The position numbers and the translations under genes were made by a program. From positions 1 through 56,966 of the forward strand of contig JALQYJ010000034.1 in assembly GCA_023254175.1 (NCBI GenBank): 56,966 nt of DNA, in the 5' to 3' direction. The notes beneath the pieces were generated by a model. That model searched no databases. It was not told the DNA's origin and was given only the letters and a program-made list of their open reading frames with translations. Positions 6,670 to 33,606 of the stretch are shown here, one piece after another; position 1 is the first letter of the stretch; each line of letters starts with the position of its first letter. The stretch is from Runella sp. Its GTDB lineage: Bacteria > Bacteroidota > Bacteroidia > Cytophagales > Spirosomataceae.

Positions 6670-6705
6670 TACTTATTATAAACTGTTCCTGCCTTTATCG
6701 TGAAA

Positions 6706-9069: not shown

Positions 9070-9102
9070 CTGGGCAAGAACACACAACAATTCATTAAAA
9101 CT

Positions 9103-10560
9103 ATGAATAAGAACGAATTTTTAGAAAACCGTTTGAATGTCAACCGTCGGCATTTTATGGGAAAAATGGCGGCGGGGATTGGTAGTGTTGCGCTCGGGTC
9201 GCTGCTCGTTCCTGATTTGTTTAAAGGCGCAGGCGATGATTCCGAAGAACTACCTTTGGGGATTGCTCATTTTGCGCCTAAGGCAAAGCGGGTTATTTAT
9301 TTGTTCCAAAACGGTGCACCATCTCAGTACGAAAGCTTTGAATATAAGCCGTTGCTAAATAAAATGGCAGGCGAGGAACTACCCGCCTCGATACGAATGG
9401 GGCAGCGCCTTACGGGGATGACCGCTAACCAAGCCAAATTTCCGTTGGTAGGGTCTTACTTTAAGTTTGCCCAACATGGGCAGTCAGGGATGTGGATGAG
9501 CGAGTTGTTTCCCAACATTGCTAATATCGCCGACGACCTGTGCATGATTAAAACCATGAACACCGAGGCCATCAACCATGACCCTGCACTCACTTTTATG
9601 CAAACCGGTGCGCAACAAGGCAACCGCCCCAGCATGGGGTCATGGGTGAGCTACGGCTTAGGTAGTGAAAATAAAAACTTACCTGCGTTTTCGGTACTGC
9701 TATCGCGTGGTCGAGGAAATGGCCAGGGCGTGTATTCAAAACTTTGGTCTAACGGGTTTTTGGATTCGACGCACCAAGGGGTGGTATTTAGCAGCGGCGA
9801 AGACCCTATTTTATATCTCAATAACCCCGCTAATGCTGATAGAGCGTCGCACCGAAAAATGCTTGATAATCTGGCAGAATTGAATAGCATAGCATTTGAT
9901 GATTTTGGTGACCCCGAAATCAAAGCCAAAGTTCAGCAATACGAAATGGCGTATCGGATGCAAACCGCCGTTCCTGAGTTGACAGATTTGAGCAAAGAGC
10001 CTGACCATATTGTCAAAATGTACGGCCCCGAGTGTTTGGTGCCAGGCACTTTTGCGGCTAACTGTTTATTGGCGCGTAAACTTTCGGAAGCAGGGGTACG
10101 TTTTGTGCAGTTGTATCACCAAGGATGGGACCAACACGGAAACATGGTGGGAGAGATGCCATTGCAAGCCAAAGATACCGACCGCGCTTCGGCGGCTTTG
10201 ATCACCGATTTGAAGCAACGAGGCTTGCTCGACGAAACATTGGTGATTTGGGGAGGTGAATTTGGGCGTACCAACTACGGACAGGGGAACTCAACCAAAG
10301 ACAACTACGGCCGCGACCACCATCCACGGGCGTATTGTACGTTCATGGCAGGTGGAGGCGTAAAGCCTGGGACGGTTTATGGCCAAACAGATGACTTTGG
10401 GTACAATATTGTGCGTGACCCTGTTCATATCAATGATTTCCACGCAACGGTGATGCACTTGATGGGTATCAATCACGAAAAACTAACCTACAAGCACCTT
10501 GGCCGTCGCTATCGTCTCACTGACTTGGCTGGAAAAGTATTGCCCGGGCTAATAGCGTAA
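9103..10560 (+). CDS. DUF1501 family exported protein (sulfatase-like fold)
   Basis: This is a 485-residue protein with a Tat-like N-terminus (NVNRRHFMGKMAAGIGSVALG). The body shows DUF1501 landmarks: KRVIYLFQNGAPSQYESFEY, MIKTMNTEAINHDPA, GSWVSYGLGSENKNLPAF, FVQLYHQGWDQHGN, LVIWGGEFGRTN and the C-terminal GRDHHPRAYCTFMAGGGVKPG. The fold is related to alkaline phosphatase/sulfatase, with Asp and His residues (WDQHGN, GRDHHPRA) in metal-ligand-like positions. It is the standard partner of PSD1-type cytochrome proteins. A Tat signal suggests folding with a cofactor before export. The reaction catalysed is not established for the family. Confidence 0.9.
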   Translation: MNKNEFLENRLNVNRRHFMGKMAAGIGSVALGSLLVPDLFKGAGDDSEELPLGIAHFAPKAKRVIYLFQNGAPSQYESFEYKPLLNKMAGEELPASIRMGQRLTGMTANQAKFPLVGSYFKFAQHGQSGMWMSELFPNIANIADDLCMIKTMNTEAINHDPALTFMQTGAQQGNRPSMGSWVSYGLGSENKNLPAFSVLLSRGRGNGQGVYSKLWSNGFLDSTHQGVVFSSGEDPILYLNNPANADRASHRKMLDNLAELNSIAFDDFGDPEIKAKVQQYEMAYRMQTAVPELTDLSKEPDHIVKMYGPECLVPGTFAANCLLARKLSEAGVRFVQLYHQGWDQHGNMVGEMPLQAKDTDRASAALITDLKQRGLLDETLVIWGGEFGRTNYGQGNSTKDNYGRDHHPRAYCTFMAGGGVKPGTVYGQTDDFGYNIVRDPVHINDFHATVMHLMGINHEKLTYKHLGRRYRLTDLAGKVLPGLIA

Positions 10561-21632: not shown

Positions 21633-21712
21633 AAGAAAAAAATAATTTCAGTTCTATAATTATTTAGCAAAACAATACTAAACGTGACGAAAAACATTTT
21701 TTTATATGAGTA

Positions 21713-21744
21713 GTCCTACTAGTTTTGGTAAAATACTATAGGAC
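21713..21744 (+). promoter_or_regulatory. Promoter element flanked by a short inverted repeat, upstream of the InsA-like gene
   Basis: TAGTTTTG (21720-21727) matches TAnnTTTG exactly; the -33 element is poor. GTCCTA (21713-21718) and TAGGAC (21739-21744) form a dyad around it. This is a candidate autoregulatory site. Confidence 0.4.
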
Positions 21745-21781: not shown

Positions 21782-22204
21782 ATGGCAGCAACACTCAAAT
21801 GCCCCAAATGTGACAGTCTCGAGACTGTCAAAAACGGAATCATCAAAGACCGTCAGCGCTTCCGTTGTAAAAAGTGTGATTATAACTTTACGGTCGATAA
21901 ACTAGGTAAAGGAATTAGCTCTTACTACGTGATTAAGGCACTTCAGCTATACATAGAAGGGGTTAGCTACCGTGAAATAGAGCGACTTCTGGGCGTGAGC
22001 CATGTATCAGTGATGAACTGGGTAAAGAAATATCAAATCAAAATGCCCGATCGTATTACGCACCATGCTACCTATAAAGTGATGAATCATAAGGAGCTGG
22101 CAGAGTTTTATGCTGACCGCAAAAATTTGGAAGGAACGGGTATGATTGTGACCGAATTAGGAGACAAGTTTATGATGATTAAATGGGAAAGATTCAAAGA
22201 TTAA
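21782..22204 (+). CDS. Orphan InsA-type zinc-ribbon/HTH DNA-binding protein (no transposase catalytic domain)
   Basis: This is 140 residues from ATG 21782; the frame runs 19 codons further upstream without a good start context. An N-terminal zinc ribbon (CPKCDSLETVKNG, FRCKKCDYNF) is followed by an HTH (ALQLYIEGVSYREIERLLGVS, HVSVMNWVKKYQIK), as in IS1 InsA and related transposase N-termini. The remaining 50 residues (NHKELAEFYADRKNLEGTG, MIVTELGDKFMMIKWERF) contain no DDE motif. No terminal inverted repeats or InsB frame are seen. It is therefore more likely a domesticated DNA-binding protein than a live IS. It directly precedes the porin/MFS/kinase/acs cluster and could be its regulator (inference from position). 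A terminator follows. Confidence 0.75.
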   Translation: MAATLKCPKCDSLETVKNGIIKDRQRFRCKKCDYNFTVDKLGKGISSYYVIKALQLYIEGVSYREIERLLGVSHVSVMNWVKKYQIKMPDRITHHATYKVMNHKELAEFYADRKNLEGTGMIVTELGDKFMMIKWERFKD

Positions 22205-22230
22205 TGAGGTCGATAAAGACATTGAGGAGA

Positions 22231-22261
22231 GGGTAACAGACGATGTTGCCCCTATTTTTTT
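22231..22261 (+). terminator. Terminator after the InsA-like gene
   Basis: GGGTAACA / TGTTGCCC pair with one G-T wobble around a 5-nt loop and are followed by about seven Ts. Confidence 0.65.
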
Positions 22262-22327
22262 ATATAAAATGGCCGTTTATTGCTAAATTACTATATTTTT
22301 GCTAAATTAAAATAGGTGATTTTCTTG

Positions 22328-22465
22328 CTATATCTCCCGAATTTTATGATGACATATTGCTTCTAGTCTCTCCTTTCTAAGGTTAAACACCATTTTTTCA
22401 AAATCTTTATGCAGGTTTTTTGCGAAAAACAGCCCTTTTTCTTGCAAACTATATGCGTTTAGCAT
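22328..22465 (-). other. Short coding-like frame, 45 codons, possible small gene or remnant
   Basis: The minus strand reads MLNAYSLQEKGLFFAKNLHK then DFEKMVFNLRKERLEAICHH and stops. The frame remains open 15 codons upstream of the ATG (KVLEIHLGDVV) before a stop. The composition is protein-like, but no family is recognised and no promoter is evident. It could be the tail of a decayed gene. It is the main content of the 22262-22507 gap. Confidence 0.25.
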
Positions 22466-22507
22466 AACAACATCACCTAGGTGGATTTCTAAAACCTTTC
22501 TTTCACT

Positions 22508-22543
22508 TTTGTCGAGTGATTATTCAAAAAAATATTTGAATAA
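22508..22543 (+). promoter_or_regulatory. Promoter overlapped by a perfect 9-bp palindrome, upstream of the porin gene
   Basis: TTTG (22508-22511), 19-bp spacer, AATATTTG (22531-22538; one mismatch to TAnnTTTG). The dyad TTATTCAAA-N6-TTTGAATAA (22520-22543) covers the spacer and the -7 box. The expected start is near 22545, leaving a 50-nt leader before ATG 22595. The geometry is that of a regulated operator. Confidence 0.6.
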
Positions 22544-22594
22544 CACAAAACGAACCGACCTCTTTTTTTAACCTCTTTGTTCTAAAAATTACCT

Positions 22595-23986
22595 ATGAAA
22601 AAGTGTTTATCATTACTGGTGTTGATGGCCAGTAGTATTCTGGCAACAAACAGTTATGGCCAAGGCTCAACTGACTACGGAACGGGCATCAAGCTTGATT
22701 TAAACCCAGAAAAAACGAAGTACATTCGCCTCATTACTTGGAATCAAACGTGGTTCAGAGCGACTGAACTGAACCCAGGGACAACCATTGGCGGCGAAGC
22801 CAAGAAAACAAATTTTGATATTTCGGGGCGTCGCCTTCGGATGTTGGCGTATTCGCAAGTGAGTAAGCGTTATATGGTATTGGCACACTTTGGTATCAAC
22901 AACCAAACGTTTATTAATGGCGGTGGTTCGGGAAGTACAGGGACAGGGGGGTACGGAAATGGTAAAAAACCTCAGTTGTTTTTTCACGATTTTTGGAATG
23001 AATATCACGTGGTATTACCCACAAAAGAAAACAAAAACTCAAGCTTGAGCATTGGGGCAGGTTTACACTACTTTATGGGATTATCACGGATGACCATGGC
23101 CTCTACGCTTAACTTTATGGCGGTGGACTCACCTATTTTCTCATGGGCAACGATTGATAATGCCGATCAATTTGCGCGTCAATACGGCTTTTTTGCCAAA
23201 GGAAAGTTGAATAAACTTGAGTACCGCTTTGGATTAAATAAGCCTTTTAGTACTAGTCTTACACCCTCCAACGTTACTGACGGGGTCAAGGCGGTGGCCG
23301 TTGATAATAACGGAAGCAGCAAATGGGCCAAAACGGGTTATGTTGAGTATCAGTTCTTAGACTCAGAATCAAACTTGTTGCCATTCAAAGTGGGTACTTA
23401 TTTAGGGACAAAGCGAGTATTTAACATTGGTGCAGGATTTTACAGCCAGCCTGAAGGAACACGTTCGTCGGTCAATGGATCCATTGCAAAACATAATGTG
23501 AACTTAATGTCAGTGGATGCCTTCTTAGATATGCCCATTGGTAAAAAGGAAAAAAACACGGCTATTACGGTTTATTCGGGCTTTTTCAAGTATAACTTCG
23601 GACCAAATTACTTGAGAAATATCGGTATCATGAACGAAGGTGTAGTTGACGCTACTTACACCGGTGCTGATAAAGTAATGGCAGGTGCAGGGAATGCACA
23701 ACCTATGATAGGCACTGGAAATATTTTCTATACGCAAGTAGGGCTTTTATTACCAAAAGCGACCGATAAACCTAAAATGCGTGTACAACCTTTTATGGCT
23801 TACACCAACAAAAACTTTGATGCACTCCCTAAAGCTGTGTCGAATTTTGATGCAGGTATCAACTGGTTGATTGATGGACACCATGCCAAAATTACGACTC
23901 AGTATTCGTTGCGACCAGAGTTAACAATGTCAGGAGCAGGGAAGAAATACGGAGAATTTATTGCTCAGCTTCAAATTTATCTCTAA
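22595..23986 (+). CDS. Outer-membrane porin-like beta-barrel protein
   Basis: This 463-residue protein has a signal peptide (MKKCLSLLVLMASSILATNS, cleavage near SYGQ). Many amphipathic strands follow (YIRLITWNQTWFRATEL, MVLAHFGINNQTF, AKTGYVEYQFLDSESNLLPF, FKVGTYLGTKRVFNIGAGFY), and the C-terminus YGEFIAQLQIYL fits a porin end strand. The size resembles substrate-selective porins. It sits 46 bp before the MHS-family transporter, so it probably lets the same acid cross the outer membrane. The cluster context (acs, prpE-like) suggests acetate or propionate, but the selectivity is inferred. Confidence 0.8.
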   Translation: MKKCLSLLVLMASSILATNSYGQGSTDYGTGIKLDLNPEKTKYIRLITWNQTWFRATELNPGTTIGGEAKKTNFDISGRRLRMLAYSQVSKRYMVLAHFGINNQTFINGGGSGSTGTGGYGNGKKPQLFFHDFWNEYHVVLPTKENKNSSLSIGAGLHYFMGLSRMTMASTLNFMAVDSPIFSWATIDNADQFARQYGFFAKGKLNKLEYRFGLNKPFSTSLTPSNVTDGVKAVAVDNNGSSKWAKTGYVEYQFLDSESNLLPFKVGTYLGTKRVFNIGAGFYSQPEGTRSSVNGSIAKHNVNLMSVDAFLDMPIGKKEKNTAITVYSGFFKYNFGPNYLRNIGIMNEGVVDATYTGADKVMAGAGNAQPMIGTGNIFYTQVGLLLPKATDKPKMRVQPFMAYTNKNFDALPKAVSNFDAGINWLIDGHHAKITTQYSLRPELTMSGAGKKYGEFIAQLQIYL

Positions 23987-24032
23987 TACCTTTTAACCTA
24001 ATCAATTTTAAAAACTCACAACCTTTTCAATC

Positions 24033-25592
24033 ATGTCTGAGAAAAAACAAAGTTTGGCGTACATCATCGGAGCTTCGTCTGTTGGTACGCTCATCGAATG
24101 GTACGATTTCTACATATTCGGAAGCTTGGCTACTGTAATCGCTACCAAATTTTTCCCGCCTGATAACCCAACGGCGGCCTTCCTTTCAACGTTAGCAACA
24201 TTTGCTGCAGGTTTTGTTGTTCGTCCTTTTGGAGCCTTATTTTTTGGCCGCCTCGGTGACCTTATCGGCCGTAAATATACTTTTATGGTAACCCTCATTT
24301 TGATGGGAGGTGCTACCTTCTTGATTGGGTGTATTCCAAGCTATGAAACTATCGGCTTCATGGCACCTGTATTGGTATTGTTACTCCGTTTCTTACAGGG
24401 GCTCGCACTCGGTGGAGAGTACGGTGGGGCAGCTACTTACGTAGCAGAACACTCACCTGCCGAAAAGCGCGGATTCTGGACATCTTGGATTCAGACTACT
24501 GCAACCATTGGTTTGTTTGTTTCATTGTTGGTTATCATGGTGACTCGTAACAGCCTTGGAACCGAAGCGTTTAATGATTGGGGATGGCGTGTTCCTTTCT
24601 GGGTATCATTGGTGATGGTAGGGGTATCGTTTATCATTCGTCGTAATATGCACGAGTCGCCACTGTTTGCCAAAGCAAAAGCAGAAGGAAAGACCTCAGC
24701 GAACCCATTGAAAGAATCGTTTGGTAATAAATATAACTTCAAGTTTGTGTTGTTGGCACTTTTTGGCGCAACGATGGGACAAGGCGTAGTTTGGTACACG
24801 GGTCAGTTTTATGCGTTGAGCTTCTTGCAAAAAATCTGTAATGTTGACGATAACCAAGTGAACGTCATTATTGCTCTAGGGTTGTTGTTAGGTACGCCAT
24901 TCTTCGTTGTATTTGCTTCGTTGTCTGATAAAATTGGCCGTAAAGGTATTATGTTGGCGGGTATGTTGTTGGCGATTATTTGCTATCGCCCGATTTTTGA
25001 GAAAATTTACCAAACTACCAATCTCAAAAACAAAGAAGAGATTGTGGCCAATACTAAAATAGATGTAAAACGTGAACTTGCGCCTAAATCGGAGGTAGAT
25101 TCGCTTATCACTACCACTACTACTAAAGAGTACACCGATGGCACGAAGTACAAAGAAGTGAAGAAGGTGACTATCTTAGCCGATGCTAGCAAAGAAGCCC
25201 CTAAGCCAGAAGTGAAAAAGGTAGTAACGGTAAATAGCAGCGACCGTACTACGCTAGTCTTGATGGTATTTGTTTTGTTACTTTTCGTAACAATGGCCTA
25301 CGGACCTATTGCGGCATTCTTGGTGGAAATGTTCCCAACCCGCATTCGTTACTCGTCGATGTCGTTGCCGTACCATATTGGGAACGGGGTGTTTGGTGGA
25401 TTGATGCCTGCGATTGCGACTTACTTGGCGACCCGTGCCAAAGATGCCAACGATGCTGCTGAAAAAGCAGGGCAAGCTATTGTGAATACACAGCCTTATT
25501 TGGAAGGTTTGTGGTATCCAATTATCCTTGCTGGGGTATGCTTTGTGATTGGCTTGCTTTACATCAAAGAAGACAAAAACGCTAACGACTAA
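24033..25592 (+). CDS. MHS-family MFS transporter with a long charged loop
   Basis: This 519-residue protein is a metabolite:H+ symporter. Motifs: GASSVGTLIEWYDFYIFG in helix 1, RPFGALFFGRLGDLIGRKYT (loop 2-3), RFLQGLALGGEYGGAATY and FASLSDKIGRKG (repeat in loop 8-9). MHS members carry organic acids or zwitterions such as ketoglutarate, shikimate and proline/betaine. Between two late helices lies a hydrophilic insert of about 78 residues (about 322-400) rich in Lys, Thr, Val and Glu (for example TTTTTKEYTDGTKYKEVKK). Some MHS relatives have long loops at this place. It is co-directional with the porin and DUF6814 genes (gaps 46 and 29 bp). An acetate or propionate carrier is the likely role, by context. 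Confidence 0.87.
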   Translation: MSEKKQSLAYIIGASSVGTLIEWYDFYIFGSLATVIATKFFPPDNPTAAFLSTLATFAAGFVVRPFGALFFGRLGDLIGRKYTFMVTLILMGGATFLIGCIPSYETIGFMAPVLVLLLRFLQGLALGGEYGGAATYVAEHSPAEKRGFWTSWIQTTATIGLFVSLLVIMVTRNSLGTEAFNDWGWRVPFWVSLVMVGVSFIIRRNMHESPLFAKAKAEGKTSANPLKESFGNKYNFKFVLLALFGATMGQGVVWYTGQFYALSFLQKICNVDDNQVNVIIALGLLLGTPFFVVFASLSDKIGRKGIMLAGMLLAIICYRPIFEKIYQTTNLKNKEEIVANTKIDVKRELAPKSEVDSLITTTTTKEYTDGTKYKEVKKVTILADASKEAPKPEVKKVVTVNSSDRTTLVLMVFVLLLFVTMAYGPIAAFLVEMFPTRIRYSSMSLPYHIGNGVFGGLMPAIATYLATRAKDANDAAEKAGQAIVNTQPYLEGLWYPIILAGVCFVIGLLYIKEDKNAND

Positions 25593-25621
25593 TCTTTAAC
25601 CCTTTAAAAAGACTCAGAATT

Positions 25622-25840
25622 ATGAACGCAATAAAAAGAATATTAGGAATTGCCTGGATTGGTATTGGTCTATATGCAGGCTATTATCTTTTCATCAACC
25701 AAGCATTGCCAATGTGGGATAAAGGTGGTACCGATTTAGTACCGGCCATCATTTATACGTTCATTTTGGCACCAATCATCGCAGGTGGGATGTCGGTTCT
25801 TGGCTACTATGCACTCACTGGCGAATACGACGAAAAATAA
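25622..25840 (+). CDS. DUF6814-like small membrane protein
   Basis: This 72-residue protein has two transmembrane helices (RILGIAWIGIGLYAGYYLF and LVPAIIYTFILAPIIAGGM) and ends YYALTGEYDEK, a tail I associate with DUF6814. Such proteins sit next to MFS transporter genes in Bacteroidota and may be accessory subunits. It lies 29 bp behind the MHS transporter and is followed by a terminator-like hairpin. Confidence 0.7.
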   Translation: MNAIKRILGIAWIGIGLYAGYYLFINQALPMWDKGGTDLVPAIIYTFILAPIIAGGMSVLGYYALTGEYDEK

Positions 25841-25870
25841 ATAAGGTTAGGTTTAGGGTTTATAATTAGG

Positions 25871-25922
25871 AATGGTTGTCGAGCGTGCTACAAACCCTCG
25901 GCAGCCATTTTTCACATTCTTA
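25871..25922 (+). terminator. Hairpin terminator or attenuator between DUF6814 and the kinase unit
   Basis: AATGGTTGTCGAG pairs with CTCGGCAGCCATT (13 bp with two G-T wobbles) and is followed by five Ts. It ends only 5 nt before the next ATG (25928). It may therefore be an attenuator inside a longer transcript, or the hairpin may mask that start. Confidence 0.6.
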
Positions 25923-25927
25923 ATCGT

Positions 25928-26137
25928 ATGTCAAAAACACGCGAATTGGCCTTAGTGGCGCTGAGTTTACTCGCTTGGGCGTTCTATAATAACCCCATTT
26001 TAAGTATTTTCAACCGCTTGAGTTTCAAGTGGCGCATTCCTGTGTTGTACATAGGAATTTTCGGAATCTGGTTTTTAATTATTGGGCTTACTTTCTTGAT
26101 TGTTAATAACACTAACAACCATCATTCTGATGAATAG
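25928..26137 (+). CDS. Small two-helix membrane protein preceding the SLC5-type kinase
   Basis: This 69-residue protein has helices at about 8-25 and 38-60 (IPVLYIGIFGIWFLIIGLTF) and a polar tail (NNTNNHHSDE). Small DUF997/DUF3311-like proteins often precede sodium:solute symporters; a similar helper role for the sensor's transporter domain is inferred. Its last codons overlap the kinase start by 8 nt, implying translational coupling. Confidence 0.65.
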   Translation: MSKTRELALVALSLLAWAFYNNPILSIFNRLSFKWRIPVLYIGIFGIWFLIIGLTFLIVNNTNNHHSDE

Positions 26138-28829
26138 CTTTTGGTTGGTCTTTGGGTCAGTTTCTTATCTGTTGGTTTTGTTTTTTGTGGCCAATTGGGC
26201 CGAGCAACGTTCGGCTAGAAGGCGTAGTTTGGTCAATAATTCGTACGTCTATGCCTTGTCATTGGCTGTTTATTGTACAGCATGGACGTTTTATGGAAGC
26301 GTGGGGCGAGCGGCTGAGTCGGGAGTAGATTTTATCGCCGTTTTTATTGGGCCTACCATTACGATGCCTCTTTGGTGGGTTATTTTTCGAAAAATTATTC
26401 GCATCTGTCAGGTTCAACGTATTACTAATATCGCCGATTTTGTGTCGGCACGTTACGGCAAAAGCCAAGCACTCGGGGTGGCTGCTACAATTTTGTGTGT
26501 TATCGGCACGATTCCCTACATTTCAATTCAACTTAAAGCGATTTCAAGTGGCTTTGGGATTCTAACTACTGCCAACGATACGGATAGTTTTCCTTGGATT
26601 GACAAAGCTTTCTATATTTCGATTCTCCTGACGATTTTTACTATTCTATTTGGCGCACGCAAGCTCGATGCCAACGAGCGGCATGAAGGGATGGTGGCAG
26701 CGATAGCTTTTGAATCGCTTTTTAAGCTATTTGCTTTCTTAGCCGTAGGCCTTTTTGTGACTTTTGTTGTTTTTGATGGATTTGACGACATTGTTCAAAA
26801 GGCTTCTACACTCATTGATTTAAATAAAATATTTACTATTAGAGAAGAAAAAACCAGTGACTGGTTTTGGTATTGTTTATTGGCTTCCTTAGCCATTATG
26901 TTTTTGCCACGTCAGTTCCAGGTGACAGTCGTGGAGAATGTAAACGAAAACCACCTTCGTAAAGCGCTCTGGATTTTTCCACTGTACTTATTGGTCATCA
27001 ACATTTTTGTCGTTCCAATTGCGTTGGGAGGGAAAATTTTGTTAGGTACAGCCGTGAAGGCCGACCAGTTTGTGTTGTCTATCCCTTTGCATTTTAATGA
27101 AAAAGTACTGGCCTTTGTGGCGTATTTAGGTGGATTTGCGGCTTCAACGAGTATGATTATTGTGGAATGTACGGCCTTGACGGTGATGCTAACCAACAAC
27201 TTGGTGATGCCTTGGCTGGTAAGTCGTACCGATTTTCAGCGACGTTTTGGCGGAGACATGGGGCAGGTCGTCATTATGTTGAGGCGTTTTTTTATTGTTC
27301 TGTTGATGGCAGGGTCGTATTTATACTATAAAAACGTCAGCGACAAATACAGTTTGGTTTCGGTTGGAATGGTGTCGTTTGCGGCGGTAGCTCAGTTTGC
27401 CCCCATCGTTTTAGGCGGTATTTTCTGGAAACGGGGGTCATTGGTGGGAGCTATGGGGGGGCTTTTGGTAGGAGGATGTGTTTGGTTTTATACCCTGATT
27501 ATTCCGTCGATGGTGTCGGCAGGGTATATGTCACCTGATATTCTCAGCAAAGGCCTTTGGGGGATGGAGGGGTTACGGCCCGAATCGCTATTGGGGGTAA
27601 CTGGATTAGATAACATTTCTCACGGAACGTTTTGGTCATTATTACTGAACATACTTTTTTACGTGGTTGGGTCGTTGTTGTCGCAACCTACAGCGTTGGA
27701 ACACAACCAAGCGGCATTATTTGTAGATGTTTTTAAATATTCAAAAACCTACGAAAGCTCAGTAGCCTGGAAGGGAAAAGCGCTGGTGACAGATATCAAA
27801 TCTCTACTGACGATTTTTTTTGGGAAAAATCATACTGAAGAAACACTCCAACTGTATGCAAAACAAAATAAGTTGGATTTAAATACAAGGTATGCGGACT
27901 CTCAGGTAGTTAACTACGCCGAAAAAATGCTGGGAGGAGCTATCGGGGCAGCGTCGGCGCGTATTTTAGTATCGTCGGTAGCAAAAGAAGAACAAATTAG
28001 TGTAGAGGAGGTGATTGATATTCTAAAGACATCGCAAGAATTAAAGACACTAAATGAAGAATTGACGCGAAAATCAGAAGAACTGGAACAGTTAACACAG
28101 CAGCTCAAACAAGCCAATGAACTTTTGCAAATTGCTGATATTCAAAAAGATGATTTTTTGTCGACGGTGACGCACGAAATTCGGACACCATTGACGTCGA
28201 TACGGGCTTTGTCAGAAATTGTTCATGATAATCCTGACATGGACGAAGAGCAACGGTCGCATTTTGTGAATACTATTACTAAAGAATCTGAGCGTTTGAC
28301 CCGGCTGATTAACCAGGTGCTGGCCCTCGAACGTTTTGAAACGGGAAAACAAGAGTTGGACATCGACGAATTTTTGATGGAAGACATTGTGGAAGAATCC
28401 TTGGAAACGCTTGACCAACTAGCAAAAGAAAAAAATATTAAAATTGAAGTAACTTATGAAGGAATTTATGACCCAATCCGCGCCGATCGTGACAGACTTA
28501 TTCAGGTGATTATCAATTTAGTATCTAATGCGATTAAATTTTGTCCTGCTGAAACGGGAAAAATTCAAATTAATACTATGCAAACTGATTCATCTCTATC
28601 ATTTAGCATATCAGATAATGGTCAAGGCATAGATAATAAATATCAAGAGCTTATATTTGAGAAATTTTATCAAACTCGTGATCAATCGGTACGGAAACCG
28701 AAAGGAAGTGGGCTAGGATTAGCCATCTGCAAAAAAATAATAGAACTGCATCAAGGTACTATAAAAGTAGAAAGCGAGCTAGGTAAAGGAAGTGTATTTA
28801 CGTGCGAAATTCCTCTGAATAAAAACTAA
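26130..28829 (+). CDS. SLC5-STAC sensor histidine kinase (CbrA/CrbS-like)
   Basis: This is 899 residues from ATG 26130, which overlaps the preceding stop by 8 nt; the frame extends 10 codons upstream. The N-terminal sodium:solute symporter (SLC5) domain has about 13 helices (to residue about 530), with TTNIADFVSARYGKS-like features (ITNIADFVSARYGKSQALG) and LPRQFQVTVVENVNENHLR. A STAC-like linker follows (about 550-640; AEKMLGGAIGAASARI), then a coiled coil. HisKA has DDFLSTVTHEIRTPLTS (phospho-His 682), and HATPase has NLVSNAIKFC, ISDNGQGID and GSGLGLAICKK. No PAS domain is seen. CrbS/CbrA proteins of gammaproteobacteria control acs and carbon use. Here the cognate receiver follows after 49 bp, and acs is in the same cluster. 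Confidence 0.93.
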   Translation: MNSFWLVFGSVSYLLVLFFVANWAEQRSARRRSLVNNSYVYALSLAVYCTAWTFYGSVGRAAESGVDFIAVFIGPTITMPLWWVIFRKIIRICQVQRITNIADFVSARYGKSQALGVAATILCVIGTIPYISIQLKAISSGFGILTTANDTDSFPWIDKAFYISILLTIFTILFGARKLDANERHEGMVAAIAFESLFKLFAFLAVGLFVTFVVFDGFDDIVQKASTLIDLNKIFTIREEKTSDWFWYCLLASLAIMFLPRQFQVTVVENVNENHLRKALWIFPLYLLVINIFVVPIALGGKILLGTAVKADQFVLSIPLHFNEKVLAFVAYLGGFAASTSMIIVECTALTVMLTNNLVMPWLVSRTDFQRRFGGDMGQVVIMLRRFFIVLLMAGSYLYYKNVSDKYSLVSVGMVSFAAVAQFAPIVLGGIFWKRGSLVGAMGGLLVGGCVWFYTLIIPSMVSAGYMSPDILSKGLWGMEGLRPESLLGVTGLDNISHGTFWSLLLNILFYVVGSLLSQPTALEHNQAALFVDVFKYSKTYESSVAWKGKALVTDIKSLLTIFFGKNHTEETLQLYAKQNKLDLNTRYADSQVVNYAEKMLGGAIGAASARILVSSVAKEEQISVEEVIDILKTSQELKTLNEELTRKSEELEQLTQQLKQANELLQIADIQKDDFLSTVTHEIRTPLTSIRALSEIVHDNPDMDEEQRSHFVNTITKESERLTRLINQVLALERFETGKQELDIDEFLMEDIVEESLETLDQLAKEKNIKIEVTYEGIYDPIRADRDRLIQVIINLVSNAIKFCPAETGKIQINTMQTDSSLSFSISDNGQGIDNKYQELIFEKFYQTRDQSVRKPKGSGLGLAICKKIIELHQGTIKVESELGKGSVFTCEIPLNKN

Positions 28830-28878
28830 ATACCTACTTTTATTGGTTTACTTATAAAAATATAAAAAAACAACGGGT

Positions 28879-29259
28879 ATGAAAATTTTGATTGTTGATG
28901 ATGAGCCTAACATTTTAATGTCTTTAGAATTTTTGATGAAAAAAGAAGGGCATAAAGTGTTTATTGCTCGTGACGGTGCCGAGGCATTTGACATCATTGA
29001 AGCAAACATCCCTGATATTGTCTTACTTGATATTATGATGCCCAAAGTGGACGGATATCAAGTCTGTGAATTTATTAAAAAACATGATGCTTATAAGCAT
29101 GCTCGGGTTGTTTTTATGAGTGCTAAAAGCAAAGAGGCCGACGTTTCAAAAGGCTTGGAGTTGGGGGCAAGTCTATATGTGCCGAAACCGTTTTCCACCC
29201 GCGAATTAATGGCTAAAGTCAACGGATTGATAAAGGATATTGCACAGGCAGCAGCCTAA
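28879..29259 (+). CDS. Single-domain response regulator (CheY-like)
   Basis: This 126-residue protein is a receiver domain only. Acidic pocket VDDEP (Asp 7-8), phospho-acceptor Asp51 (DIVLLDIMMPKVDG), Ser/Thr switch in FMSAKS and Lys in VPKPFS are all present. There is no DNA-binding domain, unlike CrbR, so the signal must pass to another protein or act by protein contact. It follows the SLC5-STAC kinase by 49 bp and is clearly its partner. Confidence 0.92.
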   Translation: MKILIVDDEPNILMSLEFLMKKEGHKVFIARDGAEAFDIIEANIPDIVLLDIMMPKVDGYQVCEFIKKHDAYKHARVVFMSAKSKEADVSKGLELGASLYVPKPFSTRELMAKVNGLIKDIAQAAA

Positions 29260-29337
29260 CAATCAGGGGGTTATAATATAAAATATTAACTATACCAACT
29301 TAGCGAAAAATGTTGCTATTCCTTGAATATTTTAGAT

Positions 29338-29345
29338 TACTTTTG
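29338..29345 (+). promoter_or_regulatory. Candidate -7 promoter element before the small-protein/ligase unit
   Basis: TACTTTTG matches TAnnTTTG exactly, with a TTG 22 bp upstream (longer than ideal). It lies about 40 bp before ATG 29386. Confidence 0.4.
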
Positions 29346-29385
29346 GATAAAAATTCAGTTGTCCAACTCTCTAATCTTATTCGTC

Positions 29386-29520
29386 ATGGAAGAAAATAAG
29401 CCCTCGTCTGGTATTGTTACCAAAGTAGTTATCGCGGTTGTTGTTCTAGTATTTATCTATGGTATTTACTGGCTTTTGAATGGCGGTATGGATGGAGCTT
29501 CACTTGAGGGAAGTCACTAA
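29386..29520 (+). CDS. 44-residue single-helix membrane protein
   Basis: The start at ATG 29386 gives MEENKPSSGIVTKVVIAVVV then LVFIYGIYWLLNGGMDGAS. This is one transmembrane helix with a short acidic N-tail. An upstream in-frame TTG (29323) lies before the promoter element and is rejected. It sits 36 bp before the acyl-CoA ligase. The function is unknown; small membrane proteins recur in this cluster. Confidence 0.55.
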   Translation: MEENKPSSGIVTKVVIAVVVLVFIYGIYWLLNGGMDGASLEGSH

Positions 29521-29556
29521 GGTTGTTTTATTTTCATTCTTTCAACTGCCTGTGCC

Positions 29557-31488
29557 ATGCCTAGCAATACACAATCCACAAACTATACTTCAATATTTGC
29601 GGCAAGTTTAACCAACCCCGAAACGTTTTGGGCCGAACAAGCCGAGCAGATTACGTGGTTTAAGAAACCCGAAACGATGCTTGAGAAAGATACCAACGGT
29701 CTAGACCGTTGGTATCCGGGTGGGCTTCTCAACACTTGTTATTTAGCAGTAGATTACCACGTTGAGAATGGAAGAGGGGAGCAAATAGCGATGGTTTATG
29801 ATTCTCCCGTTACAAATACAATCCAGAAATATACTTTTTCAGAGTTACAAAACAACGTAGCTAAATGTGCAGGAGCATTGCGAGCATTGGGAGTTGAAAA
29901 AGGCGATAGAGTGGTTATTTATATGCCCATGATTCCCGAAACAGCATTTGCTATGCTAGCTTGTGCCCGTTTGGGTGCAATACACTCGGTTGTTTTTGGG
30001 GGCTTTGCACCGCACGAGTTGGCCATACGTATAGAAGATGCCGAACCTAAAGTGATTATTTCGGCTTCTTGTGGAATTGAGTTTGACCGTATTTTACCTT
30101 ACAAACCACTGTTGGATGAAGCTATCGAATTGGCTTCTTTTAAACCCAATCACTGTCTTATCTATCAACGTTCGATGTGTCATGCACCAATGATACAAGG
30201 GCGTGATGTGGATTATGCCGAAGCTGTTGCACAGGCTGATCCTGCGGAATGTGTACCTGTAGACGCGACTCACCCACTTTATATTTTATATACCTCAGGA
30301 ACTACGGGAAAGCCTAAAGGGGTAGTGCGCGACAATGGAGGACATGCCGTTGCTCTTAAATTTAGCATGCACCATGTCTATGATGCCCATGCAGGAGATG
30401 TTTTTTGGGCCGCGTCTGATTTTGGTTGGGTCGTAGGGCATAGCTATATTTTGTATGGGCCGTTGATTGCAGGGTGTACAACCGTCTTGTTTGAAGGAAA
30501 GCCCGTTCGGACGCCTGATGCTGGTACATTTTGGCGGGTGATTGCTGAACATAAAGTAAAGACGTTTTTTACGGCTCCAACGGCCTTTAGAGCGATAAAA
30601 AAAGAAGATCCCGACGCTTCATTGAAAGCGAAATACGATACGTCAAGTTTGCAAAATATTTTTGTGGCAGGTGAACGCTGTGACCCTCCAACGCTAGAGT
30701 GGCTCCAAAAAATAGCCCAACTTCCCATCACCGACCACTGGTGGCAAACTGAATCGGGATGGCCGATGGTGGCCAACATGATGGGCGTAGAGTCTTTTCC
30801 TGTCAAGGCAGGCTCGGCAACTAAGCCTGTATGTGGGTATAATCTCAAAATTGTGGGCGAAAACGGCCAAGAACTGGAAGCCAACCACGAAGGATATGTA
30901 TGTTTGAAACTACCACTTCCTCCAGGTTTCACTCCTACGCTTTGGAACGATGACGCTCGTTTTAAAAACTCGTACCTCAAAAAATTTGAAGGGTATTATC
31001 TGTCAGGAGATGGAGGATATGTAGACGACGACGGTTATGTGTTTATTATGGGGCGCGTGGATGATGTCATCAATGTGGCAGGGCATCGCCTTTCGACGGG
31101 AGAAATGGAAGAATTTGTGGCGTCACATTCTGCCGTGGCCGAGTGTGCCGTGGTTGGAATCGCCGACGAACTTCGTGGGCAGCGGCCTGTGGGTTTGGTA
31201 GTCTTAAAAGACGGTATTACAATTGAAGAATCAACGCTGGAATCGGAGTTGGTGGGTATTGTGCGAGACCAGATTGGTGCCGTGGCGTTTTTCCGAACGG
31301 CTATTGTGGTGAAGCGTTTGCCCAAAACCCGCTCAGGAAAAATCTTGCGGAAGACGATTCGCCAAATTGCCGATGGAGAGTCCTATACGGTGCCATCAAC
31401 GATAGATGACCCCGCTATTTTAGAGGAAATTGCTGGAAGCTTACAACGCAGAGGGGTGGGGCAAGCCTTTGAAAATCAAAAAGTATAA
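29557..31488 (+). CDS. prpE: Acyl-CoA synthetase, propionyl-CoA synthetase (PrpE/ACSS3)-like
   Basis: This 643-residue ANL-family ligase has the AMP-binding motif YTSGTTGKPKGVV, YGPLIAGCTTVLFEG, TDHWWQTESGWP, GRVDDVINVAGHRLSTGEMEE and catalytic Lys in TRSGKILRKTIRQI. The stretch VRDNGGHAVALKFSMHHVYD is characteristic of PrpE/ACSS3 rather than Acs. It should activate propionate (or another short acid) to its CoA ester. A strong terminator separates it from acs downstream. Confidence 0.88.
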   Translation: MPSNTQSTNYTSIFAASLTNPETFWAEQAEQITWFKKPETMLEKDTNGLDRWYPGGLLNTCYLAVDYHVENGRGEQIAMVYDSPVTNTIQKYTFSELQNNVAKCAGALRALGVEKGDRVVIYMPMIPETAFAMLACARLGAIHSVVFGGFAPHELAIRIEDAEPKVIISASCGIEFDRILPYKPLLDEAIELASFKPNHCLIYQRSMCHAPMIQGRDVDYAEAVAQADPAECVPVDATHPLYILYTSGTTGKPKGVVRDNGGHAVALKFSMHHVYDAHAGDVFWAASDFGWVVGHSYILYGPLIAGCTTVLFEGKPVRTPDAGTFWRVIAEHKVKTFFTAPTAFRAIKKEDPDASLKAKYDTSSLQNIFVAGERCDPPTLEWLQKIAQLPITDHWWQTESGWPMVANMMGVESFPVKAGSATKPVCGYNLKIVGENGQELEANHEGYVCLKLPLPPGFTPTLWNDDARFKNSYLKKFEGYYLSGDGGYVDDDGYVFIMGRVDDVINVAGHRLSTGEMEEFVASHSAVAECAVVGIADELRGQRPVGLVVLKDGITIEESTLESELVGIVRDQIGAVAFFRTAIVVKRLPKTRSGKILRKTIRQIADGESYTVPSTIDDPAILEEIAGSLQRRGVGQAFENQKV

Positions 31489-31522
31489 GCTTATAATTGA
31501 ATTATACGTTAGGTTAAGTTCG

Positions 31523-31554
31523 AACGCCAGACTTGTCTCAAGTCTGGCGTTTTT
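31523..31554 (+). terminator. Strong intrinsic terminator after the prpE-like gene
   Basis: AACGCCAGACTTG-TCT-CAAGTCTGGCGTT, a perfect 13-bp stem, followed by T4. Confidence 0.9.
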
Positions 31555-31716
31555 GGTAGGTTTAGGGCATGATTTTTATCATTTTCTATATAAAGTTAGC
31601 AATTTTGTGACACTAATTTCACCTAAACGAGAAAATGTTTTGCTATTTTTATACCCATAATTCAGTAACAGACTTTCCTTTTAATAACCTTAATCAATCA
31701 AACACCTTTTGAAATC

Positions 31717-33606
31717 ATGCGTATTCGTACATTTGAAGAGTATCAGGCCGCTTACCAGCATAGTGTAGAAGATCCTGAAGGCTTTTGGGCAGAAGTGGCT
31801 CAAGAGTTTAAGTGGCACAAGCCGTGGAAAAAAGTACTAGATTGGAATTTCACCGGACCTGATGTAAAATGGTTTGTGAATGGCAAAACAAATATTACCG
31901 AAAACGCACTCGACCGCCACTTACGTGAACTAGGTAATCACCCAGCGATTATTTGGGAACCCAATGACCCCCATGAGCCAAGTGTTACGCTTACCTACAA
32001 AATGTTGCACGACCAAGTATGTCGTTTTGCCAACGTACTGAAACGCAATGGAGTCCAAAAAGGTGATCGTGTTTGTATTTACTTACCAATGGTGCCTGAG
32101 GCAGCTATTGCGATGTTGGCCTGCGCACGTATCGGAGCGATTCACTCGGTGGTGTTTGGAGGTTTCTCGGCACAATCATTGACCGATCGTATCAATGATT
32201 CTGATTGTAAGGTAATTATCACCTCGGACGGTGCGGCGCGTGGCTCTAAAAGTATCCCTATGAAAGATACCGTTGACGATGCCTTGATTGGATGCCATTC
32301 GGTAGAAAAAGTGATTGTACTTACCCATACTCGTACGCCAATTTCGATGATTAAGGGGCGTGATGTATGGTGGGAAAGTGAAATGAAACAAGTTACTTCC
32401 GACTGCCCTCCAGAAATCTTGGATTCTGAAGACCCCCTGTTCATTTTATATACTTCTGGGTCAACGGGTAAACCCAAAGGGGTGGTTCATACTACGGGGG
32501 GCTATATGGTGTATTCGGCCTATACATTTCAAAATGTTTTCCAATATGAGACAGGTCAAATCCACTTTTGCACCGCTGACGTAGGTTGGATTACGGGACA
32601 CAGTTATATCGTTTATGGTCCCTTGTTGAGTGGTGCTACTACTTTGATGTTTGAGGGAGTGCCAACGTATCCTGATGCAGGGCGTTTTTGGGACATTGTC
32701 GATAAGCACAAAGTAGATATTTTATACACGGCTCCCACGGCGATTCGTTCGTTGATGGGCTTTGGTTTAAAATATGTTGAAGGTAAAGACCTTAGCTCCC
32801 TCAAAGTGTTGGGCTCGGTAGGGGAGCCTATCAACGAGGAAGCGTGGAATTGGTACAACGAACACATCGGAAAAGGGCGATGCCCAATCGTAGATACCTG
32901 GTGGCAAACCGAAACAGGGGGCATTCTCATTTCACCAATTGCGGGAGTAACTAAAACCAAACCCACGTATGCAACTCTGCCATTGCCAGGCGTACAACCG
33001 ATTTTGGTGGACGAAAATGGCGTTGAGATTGAAGGAAATGGCGTGAGTGGTAACTTGTGTATCAAGTATCCGTGGCCATCGATTATTCGTACGACTTGGG
33101 GCGATCATGAGCGCTGCCGTCAAACCTATTTTTCAACCTATCCGGGACGTTATTTTACAGGCGATGGATGCTTGCGTGATGAAGACGGATATTACCGTAT
33201 CACTGGACGAGTGGATGATGTATTGAACGTATCGGGACACCGTATCGGAACGGCCGAAGTTGAAAATGCCATCAATATGCACGCCGACGTGATTGAAAGT
33301 GCCGTGGTTGGCTATCCGCACGACATTAAAGGGCAAGGAATTTATGCATTTGTGATTTGTGAAAATACCCTCGATGATGAAGACTTGTCTCGTCGCGATA
33401 TTTTGGCCACTGTAACGCGTATCATTGGGCCTATTGCTAAACCTGATAAAATTCAATTTGTGAGAGGGTTGCCAAAAACACGCTCAGGAAAAATAATGCG
33501 ACGAATTTTGCGTAAAATCGCCGAAGGTGATACGTCAAATTTGGGCGATACGACCACACTACTCGATCCAACGGTGGTGGAAGATATCAAAGATGGAGCT
33601 TTGTAA
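31717..33606 (+). CDS. acs: Acetyl-CoA synthetase
   Basis: This 629-residue protein is full length for Acs. Motifs: YTSGSTGKPKGVVHTTGGY, CTADVGWITGHSYIVYGPL, DTWWQTETGG, GRVDDVLNVSGHRIGTAE and catalytic/acetylatable Lys in TRSGKIMRRILRKIAEGD. It converts acetate, ATP and CoA to acetyl-CoA via acetyl-AMP. It has its own transcription unit between two strong terminators, 228 bp after the prpE-like gene. As in CrbS/R systems it is likely regulated by the nearby kinase, though the porin-type palindrome is not found upstream of it. Confidence 0.96.
   Translation: MRIRTFEEYQAAYQHSVEDPEGFWAEVAQEFKWHKPWKKVLDWNFTGPDVKWFVNGKTNITENALDRHLRELGNHPAIIWEPNDPHEPSVTLTYKMLHDQVCRFANVLKRNGVQKGDRVCIYLPMVPEAAIAMLACARIGAIHSVVFGGFSAQSLTDRINDSDCKVIITSDGAARGSKSIPMKDTVDDALIGCHSVEKVIVLTHTRTPISMIKGRDVWWESEMKQVTSDCPPEILDSEDPLFILYTSGSTGKPKGVVHTTGGYMVYSAYTFQNVFQYETGQIHFCTADVGWITGHSYIVYGPLLSGATTLMFEGVPTYPDAGRFWDIVDKHKVDILYTAPTAIRSLMGFGLKYVEGKDLSSLKVLGSVGEPINEEAWNWYNEHIGKGRCPIVDTWWQTETGGILISPIAGVTKTKPTYATLPLPGVQPILVDENGVEIEGNGVSGNLCIKYPWPSIIRTTWGDHERCRQTYFSTYPGRYFTGDGCLRDEDGYYRITGRVDDVLNVSGHRIGTAEVENAINMHADVIESAVVGYPHDIKGQGIYAFVICENTLDDEDLSRRDILATVTRIIGPIAKPDKIQFVRGLPKTRSGKIMRRILRKIAEGDTSNLGDTTTLLDPTVVEDIKDGAL

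Follow-up and report, generated by a model that had tools for sequence, protein, structure and literature searches.

The 56,966-nucleotide stretch of Runella sp. DNA analysed here (contig JALQYJ010000034.1 of assembly GCA_023254175.1; Bacteroidota, Bacteroidia, Cytophagales, Spirosomataceae), hereafter called the window, carries between positions 21,782 and 33,606 a set of genes that likely forms a self-contained acetate, and probably also propionate, switch with a split response regulator (Table 1). In the circuit that we propose, the acid would enter via an outer-membrane porin and a metabolite/H+ symporter (MHS)-family transporter with a DUF6814 partner, and would be activated by the products of acs and of a gene for a PrpE-like ligase (ligP). 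An SLC5-STAC histidine kinase with a CbrX-like small subunit would sense the substrate and phosphorylate an output-less receiver, while a separate output protein, a domesticated InsA of the insertion sequence IS1, would bind TTTGCTAAAWTANTATAG and act as a repressor at its own promoter and as an activator at porin and acs. As the lone receiver has no DNA-binding domain, the InsA-like gene that heads the module is the candidate for the DNA-binding output. A preliminary description of this region had named nine genes, all of which we found on the + strand where it placed them, and had stated that transport, signal and metabolism are encoded together, as the gene content bears out. It omitted the InsA-like gene (21782–22204), though its interval starts at the ATG of that gene, and it included a 44-residue membrane protein that proved not to be conserved, with tblastn matches in only 2 of 80 neighbourhoods.

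The outcome that would have spoken against the preliminary description, a gene order that differs between relatives, was not observed: the gene order is conserved among Cytophagales, and the module recurs within this order and in further orders of the same class. In a family sample of 61 genomes (cut-offs E 1e-100 for the kinase and E 1e-10 for the InsA-like regulator), the kinase was found in 25 genomes, the regulator in 26 and both in 24. The only genome with the kinase alone (G025) has a completeness of 66%, and the porin gene is cut off there by the contig end; two others (G027 and G040) have the regulator alone. The detected genes follow the same order in all 25 kinase-bearing genomes of the family, the MHS gene being detected in 22, and the regulator lies upstream of the kinase on the same strand wherever both are on one fetched contig. 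The order sample comprises 194 genomes from 93 genera and was scored at E 1e-120 for the kinase and at least 190 bits for a full-length regulator; lower-scoring, mobile-IS1-like matches were left out of the regulator counts. It contains the kinase in 43 genomes, the regulator in 52 and both in 41 (Fisher 2e-29), or, counted by genus, in 23, 22 and 21, respectively; neither the genome test nor the genus test takes shared ancestry into account. Among the 395 genomes of the phylum sample, the regulator is present in 30, the kinase in 41 and both in 28. The two genes lie apart in five genomes (G073, G113, G122, G138 and G168).

Named genomes yielded 498 regulator loci, and the closest named relatives of the regulator assign the window to Runella. 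The neighbourhoods of the best 80 of these loci, searched by tblastn for module genes, contain the receiver in 68, the kinase in 66, the MHS transporter in 62, acs in 47, the porin in 46, the PrpE-like ligase in 39 and DUF6814 in 37; since the flanks extend to at most 10 kb, this survey undercounts the far genes. The best conserved genes of the module include the InsA-like regulator and acs. Regulator, kinase and receiver stand together in 11 of the 12 loci from outside the order (11 in the same class, one in another class); the twelfth locus, L246, consists of a 4-kb contig that carries the regulator and a porin-like match. Some arrangements vary: acs lies upstream in divergent orientation in L245 and L248, the MHS gene is undetected in L250, the regulator is downstream of the kinase in G235, and acs and the receiver are on the opposite strand in L136.

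The InsA-like regulator has the IS1 transposase as its best-matching family: it aligns to profile positions 1–128 of the 199 of NF033558 (transpos_IS1) with 82.8 bits, below the curated cut-off of 100 bits, and it passes the Zn-ribbon and helix-turn-helix (HTH) models NF050000 (42.4 bits, cut-off 28) and PF13384 (26.5 bits, cut-off 24.6). All 80 aligned regulator sequences match NF033558 at E 1e-5 or better, so annotation pipelines may call such regulators transposases and overlook them. The four cysteines of the CxxC/CxxC ribbon and Trp80 are invariant in 80 of 80 sequences and belong to a total of 30 invariant residues. When the regulator is aligned to the orfA-like frames of mobile IS1 elements (G130, G231 and G062), the Asp of the 'EIDEM' motif, which we take to be the first catalytic residue of the IS1 DDE transposase, is substituted: none of the 80 regulators has an Asp at position 104, and the following Glu is invariant. 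To judge from these sequence features, the protein would be a domesticated IS1 InsA that has kept DNA binding, which is strongly predicted, and has lost its role as a transposase. An AlphaFold model computed from the 80 sequences has a mean pLDDT (predicted local distance difference test) of 87 and a pTM (predicted template modelling score) of 0.62, compared with a pLDDT of 73 for an earlier model from 26 sequences. Foldseek searches with both models returned no match at E 0.001 or below; the HTH together with the β-α-β-β domain weakly resembles the ligand-responsive regulators of the Lrp/AsnC type, at a best E of 0.015.

The gene at 21782 might, in principle, be an ordinary hitch-hiking IS1 remnant, as its IS1 profile match and the mobile IS1 copies of other genomes in the order would allow. 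However, it has one full-length match in its own genome, i.e. it is single-copy, the sole other match being a 34-residue Zn-ribbon stretch (E 8e-5); its product is 98% identical to that of congeners, compared with 65–66% for the kinase of the same congeners; and it occupies the same position in many genera. Its frame is intact and is followed by no + strand open reading frame (ORF) of at least 40 amino acids before the porin, and the invariant residues noted above point the same way. On the grounds of copy number, synteny and conservation we rejected this explanation, which is almost certainly wrong. Some genomes of the order contain many copies of mobile IS1 elements in which orfA and orfB are separate frames (L231 on G231:C1, L230, and L234 in G130), and the regulator-profile matches of the mobile IS1 type number 21 in G231 and 8 in G130.

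The operator predicted for this regulator is an 18-bp element, derived by phylogenetic footprinting from the window and eight loci (seven from Runella and one from another member of the Spirosomataceae), which share a conserved element upstream of the regulator and between the regulator and the porin. The pattern TTTGCTAAATTANTATAG, with up to 3 mismatches, has 6 matches in the window versus 0.53 expected; four are the source sites, and the two new ones, at 29290 and 31586, precede the PrpE-like ligase and acs, respectively. A position weight matrix (PWM) built from 66 sites gives 7 matches of at least 12 bits in the 57-kb window, all of them within four intergenic regions of the module, compared with 0–2 matches in each of 20 simulated windows. 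Across the genome, a scan at up to 2 mismatches yielded 12 matches versus 9 with a reversed-pattern control, and sites with 0–1 mismatch occurred in the module only; for this reason we claim no regulon members outside the module.

The sites are conserved in relatives. In 80 loci, a slightly wider form of the pattern reaches a density of 2.70 per kb within 450 bp before the regulator, against 0.054 per kb elsewhere, and an upstream match persists in 56 of 72 loci once the eight derivation loci are removed. When the 250 bp before each gene are scanned with the PWM, 97 of 104 loci have a site before the regulator (93 forward), 24 of 49 before the porin (22 reverse) and 21 of 54 before acs (20 reverse), shuffled sequences giving 2–3%; the values for MHS (5/78), kinase (1/86), receiver (5/89) and DUF6814 (0/47) are at or near that level. 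For loci outside the PWM training set, the corresponding counts are 21/25 for the regulator, 3/14 for the porin, 9/19 for acs and 1/11 for ligP. The porin and acs sites usually have the opposite orientation and lie about 85–190 bp upstream of the estimated start codon. Upstream of the regulator, the site is repeated in tandem with a period of 19 bp. This tandem occurs without mismatch in 18 of the 194 order genomes, every one of which has the regulator; at up to 1 mismatch, 37 of the 52 order-sample genomes that have the regulator carry it, against 1 of the 142 that lack the regulator, and the phylum sample gives 24 of 30 against 2 of 365.

Flavobacterial sigma-A promoters carry a TAnnTTTG -7 box, according to PMC9723704. 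This box is found in 68 of the 97 site-bearing regulator upstream regions, nearly always at the repeat junction (67 occurrences at two equivalent repeat offsets), as would be the case if the element were a promoter element or the site of another DNA-binding protein, with the InsA-like gene merely linked to it. The tandem also occurs without the gene in the two phylum-sample genomes and the one order-sample genome counted above. This explanation is nevertheless improbable: the tandem is nearly confined to genomes with the InsA-like gene, kinase-less ones included, and the reversed sites lie well upstream of acs and porin, where the box is found in 1 of 45 site-bearing regions (0/21 for acs and 1/24 for porin; 12% in shuffles). 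In four genomes of one genus (G113, G138, G164 and G084), the regulator gene is elsewhere and the tandem precedes the porin gene of the transport module; the three regulator loci that were read (G113, G138 and G164) do not contain the tandem. Since the tandem stays before the porin in a genus with the regulator elsewhere, the InsA-like protein would act on its sites in trans. We therefore favour the InsA-like protein as the putative binder of the motif. At its own promoter the tandem sites overlie the sigma-A -7 box, which suggests autorepression, and the distant and reversed sites at porin and acs suggest activation there.

The sensor of the proposed switch belongs to a known kinase type. Its SLC5 domain matches PF00474 with 25.9 bits, over the cut-off of 22.8, and a phmmer search aligns residues 7–462 of the window kinase to the PDB chain 10ed_A with 224 bits. 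Positions 5–618 of a profile made from 20 kinase sequences align to residues 9–589 of the 606 of this chain and span SLC5 and STAC; the coverage of STAC needs the profile, as the alignment of the single window sequence ends at residue 462. From its length and title, the latter reading only 'histidine kinase', 10ed_A appears to be the SLC5-STAC structure of CbrA described in PMC13022988. The 69-residue protein encoded just upstream shows two hydrophobic stretches by eye, and in 20 of 23 relatives its stop codon falls within the first 8 nucleotides of the kinase gene. Its profile found no sequence match to CbrX in a search of PDB sequences, so the resemblance to CbrX is an analogy of position and form. 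The receiver has no output domain, and its D51 is nearly invariant in the alignment.

Receivers decay where the kinase is missing from the locus. In L087 and L202, two loci of one genome that has no kinase match genome-wide, D51 is replaced by Asn (L087:7342–7716), and in L159, L160 and L164, where the kinase is absent from the locus, the receivers have lost Ser81 and other conserved residues; the regulator frame is intact in the loci with decaying receivers. This decay fits a kinase–receiver pair and is no proof that the receiver acts on the regulator. Taken together, the receivers of these five loci form a natural series of decaying orphans.

Several observations weigh against the switch as we propose it. 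No kinase match was found in 11 of the 52 regulator-positive genomes of the order sample (in one of them, G164, the contig is broken), which means that the regulator can function in the absence of the kinase, and 13 of the 41 kinase genomes of the phylum sample, all in other classes, lack the regulator. In the 8 kinase loci that were read from these 13 genomes, a single-domain receiver stands beside the kinase in every case; as the lone receiver thus occurs without the regulator outside the class, it may act on other partners. A test, by residuals, for relaxed constraint on the C-terminal domain of the regulator where the kinase has been lost gave 8 of 11 kinase-less loci (two of them from one genome) that were matched or undercut by at most 5 of 83 kinase-linked sequences, and the same result in 3 of 5 loci whose kinase is elsewhere in the genome; identical proteins were merged, and a list of 22 locus ids whose kinase status was unknown or split, including one id that the set did not contain, was excluded beforehand. 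As to the operator, a detectable site precedes acs in 39% and the porin in 49% of the loci, the PWM was trained in part on loci from close relatives of the window, and ligP is at background level (2/46), so that the site before it in the window is not general. The missing -7 box at acs and porin does not by itself establish activator-dependent promoters, because shuffled sequences contain it at only 12%.

Part of this evidence would suit two separate branches, in which the InsA-like protein regulates alone, for instance with its C-terminal domain as a metabolite sensor, and the kinase and receiver have a different target, for instance the transporter or some other protein. The kinase-less genomes, 7 of 11 of which keep the tandem at up to 1 mismatch, the weak Foldseek likeness to Lrp/AsnC regulators and the decay of receivers next to intact regulator frames are all compatible with such a scheme. 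On the other hand, only 2 of the 43 kinase genomes of the order sample lack the regulator, and the co-occurrence holds in the five genomes where the two genes lie apart; we therefore consider two separate branches somewhat unlikely. Under the split-regulator reading, the receiver would be coupled to the regulator, perhaps via the C-terminal domain of the latter. The most specific form of this proposal, to which we give slightly less than an even chance, is that the phosphorylated receiver docks on the β-α-β-β domain and converts an autorepressor into a protein that activates porin and acs; in many lineages of the class, a regulator of insertion-sequence origin would thus have become the dedicated acetate transcription factor. 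We also considered that the takeover by the InsA-like protein caused the loss of the output domain from the receiver; this is not supported, as the 8 regulator-less loci read outside the class have a single-domain receiver, too. By eye, three loci from other classes (L255, L258 and L259) have an ORF resembling an ArsR-type HTH protein in the vicinity of the kinase, and the ORF 3' of the receiver looks PAS-like or exonuclease-like in several of the 8 loci; lineages of other classes may use other partners.

The assignment to acetate and propionate rests on the ligases and on the analogy with CrbS, and acetate is a putative ligand. The acs product of the window scores above its curated cut-off (Table 1), and acs lies downstream of the regulator in five kinase-less loci (L126–L130); both points argue for acetate. 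In the kinase-less genomes G144, G092, G213 and G129, acs comes after the regulator at a distance of no more than 0.6 kb. Another monocarboxylate, such as pyruvate or propionate, might be sensed or imported instead, given that in other systems kinases of the SLC5-STAC type regulate a pyruvate symporter (RpuS) or have histidine as their ligand (CbrA), that MHS transporters are diverse and that a PrpE-like ligase is part of the module. The score of this ligase is also under a second PrpE cut-off (714 versus 827 bits). We regard a substrate other than acetate as unlikely.

Table 1. Genes of the module and predicted operator sites in the window
Feature	Position	Strand	Remarks
InsA-like regulator	21782–22204	+	140 aa; Zn ribbon, HTH, C-terminal β-α-β-β domain; predicted to derive from IS1 orfA
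Outer-membrane porin	22595–23986	+	NF040900 porin family, 44 bits, below cut-off
MHS-family MFS transporter (metabolite/H+ symporter)	24033–25592	+	PF00083; TIGR00883, 365 bits (cut-off 443)
DUF6814 small membrane protein	25622–25840	+	PF20664, 87.2 bits
69-aa membrane protein, CbrX-like	25928–26137	+	8-nt overlap with kinase start
SLC5-STAC sensor histidine kinase	26130–28829	+	HisKA, HATPase, weak SSF match
Single-domain receiver	28879–29259	+	126 aa; phospho-acceptor D51; PF00072, 103 bits
44-aa membrane protein	29386–29520	+	Nearest relatives only; tblastn 2/80 neighbourhoods
PrpE-like acyl-CoA (propionate) ligase (ligP)	29557–31488	+	NF007815, 762 bits (cut-off 955)
acs, acetate-CoA ligase	31717–33606	+	TIGR02188, 956 bits (cut-off 725)
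Inverted operator copy upstream of InsA-like gene	21654–21671	-	PWM 22.8 bits; 1 mismatch to consensus; aligned in relatives
Operator over sigma-A -7 box at predicted own promoter of InsA-like gene	21720–21741	+	Site 21724–21741, PWM 22.3 bits; TAnnTTTG from 21720
Tandem operator, 19-bp period	22279–22315	+	Sites 22279–22296 and 22298–22315; TAnnTTTG box at 22294
Predicted operator before porin	22449–22466	-	146 bp before start codon; PWM 12.5 bits, weakest of seven
Predicted operator before 44-aa ORF and PrpE-like ligase	29290–29307	-	PWM 18.1 bits
Predicted operator before acs	31586–31603	-	131 bp before start codon; PWM 16.8 bits

Among the transport genes, the porin (22595–23986) had no match in a Pfam search, and the sub-cut-off match of Table 1 is its sole NCBIfam porin match. 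The MHS transporter has, at about residues 330–400, a long charged insertion that seems to separate two halves, and the family profile breaks there. The DUF6814 protein is possibly an accessory subunit of this transporter; its gene lies 3' of the MHS gene in many relatives and may encode an undescribed subunit of MHS-type carriers, and no mention of DUF6814 was found in the open-access literature searched. Elsewhere in the window (6700–10560), an adjacent pair of genes resembles, by eye, those for planctomycete large cytochrome-type and DUF1501-like proteins.

While the kinase family is already known, the proposed split, transposase-derived output and its operator set the arrangement apart from CrbS/CrbR and RpuS/RpuR. 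In the open-access literature searched we found no report of this arrangement, nor of an acetate histidine kinase in Runella, and titles and opening lines of abstracts on CrbS in Bacteroidetes, IS1 domestication, transposase exaptation and the acetate switch contained no such regulator. If correct, the proposal would provide a complete acetate-switch circuit, from a transporter-like sensor to an operator, for a large environmental lineage, and an example of how the repressor of an insertion sequence can become a transcription factor for metabolic genes.

The closest known system is CrbS/CrbR of Pseudomonas and Vibrio, where, according to PMC5715377, an SLC5-STAC kinase controls acs and a conserved motif precedes acs; the Runella module shares both the kinase type next to acs and a conserved motif before this gene. 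The preliminary description called the arrangement independent, which does not apply to the kinase, as it is of the same SLC5-STAC kind as CrbS and CbrA, and does apply to the output protein and the DNA motif, which differ from the LuxR-type CrbR and from its ACTU motif. CrbR is one LuxR-type protein, whereas the receiver and the putative IS1-derived DNA-binding protein are here encoded by separate genes; CrbS is a hybrid kinase, whereas the kinase described here has no receiver domain. The ACTU motif is an inverted repeat and the predicted motif a direct repeat, which bears no resemblance to the ACTU sequences given in PMC5715377 (no scan for ACTU was made). In Pseudomonas, the CbrX gene overlaps that of CbrA, and CbrX was found bound to the SLC5 domain of CbrA, as described in PMC13022988; the module likewise has a gene for a small membrane protein that lies upstream of the SLC5-STAC kinase gene and overlaps it. 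The output of CbrA is the sigma-54 activator CbrB, unlike the output proposed here. In Sinorhizobium, the SLC5-STAC kinase RpuS, together with RpuR, controls a monocarboxylate permease, according to PMC9100948. That system differs by its LuxR-type regulator and by its MctP symporter with a nearby DUF3311 gene, in place of the MHS transporter with DUF6814.

The pairing of ActP with a DUF485 protein is another example of a small membrane protein associated with a carboxylate transporter. The module resembles it in that the gene for a small membrane protein follows that of a presumed carboxylate transporter, and differs in that the two are of the DUF6814 and MHS families; according to PMC5715377, the CrbS/R regulon includes a DUF485 protein. 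The regulator itself aligns with IS1 InsA over the Zn ribbon, the HTH and the first part of the domain that follows. IS1 InsA represses its own promoter. In contrast to InsA, the regulator is a single-copy chromosomal gene product with no second transposase frame, it has lost the catalytic Asp, and its predicted operators stand before metabolic genes.

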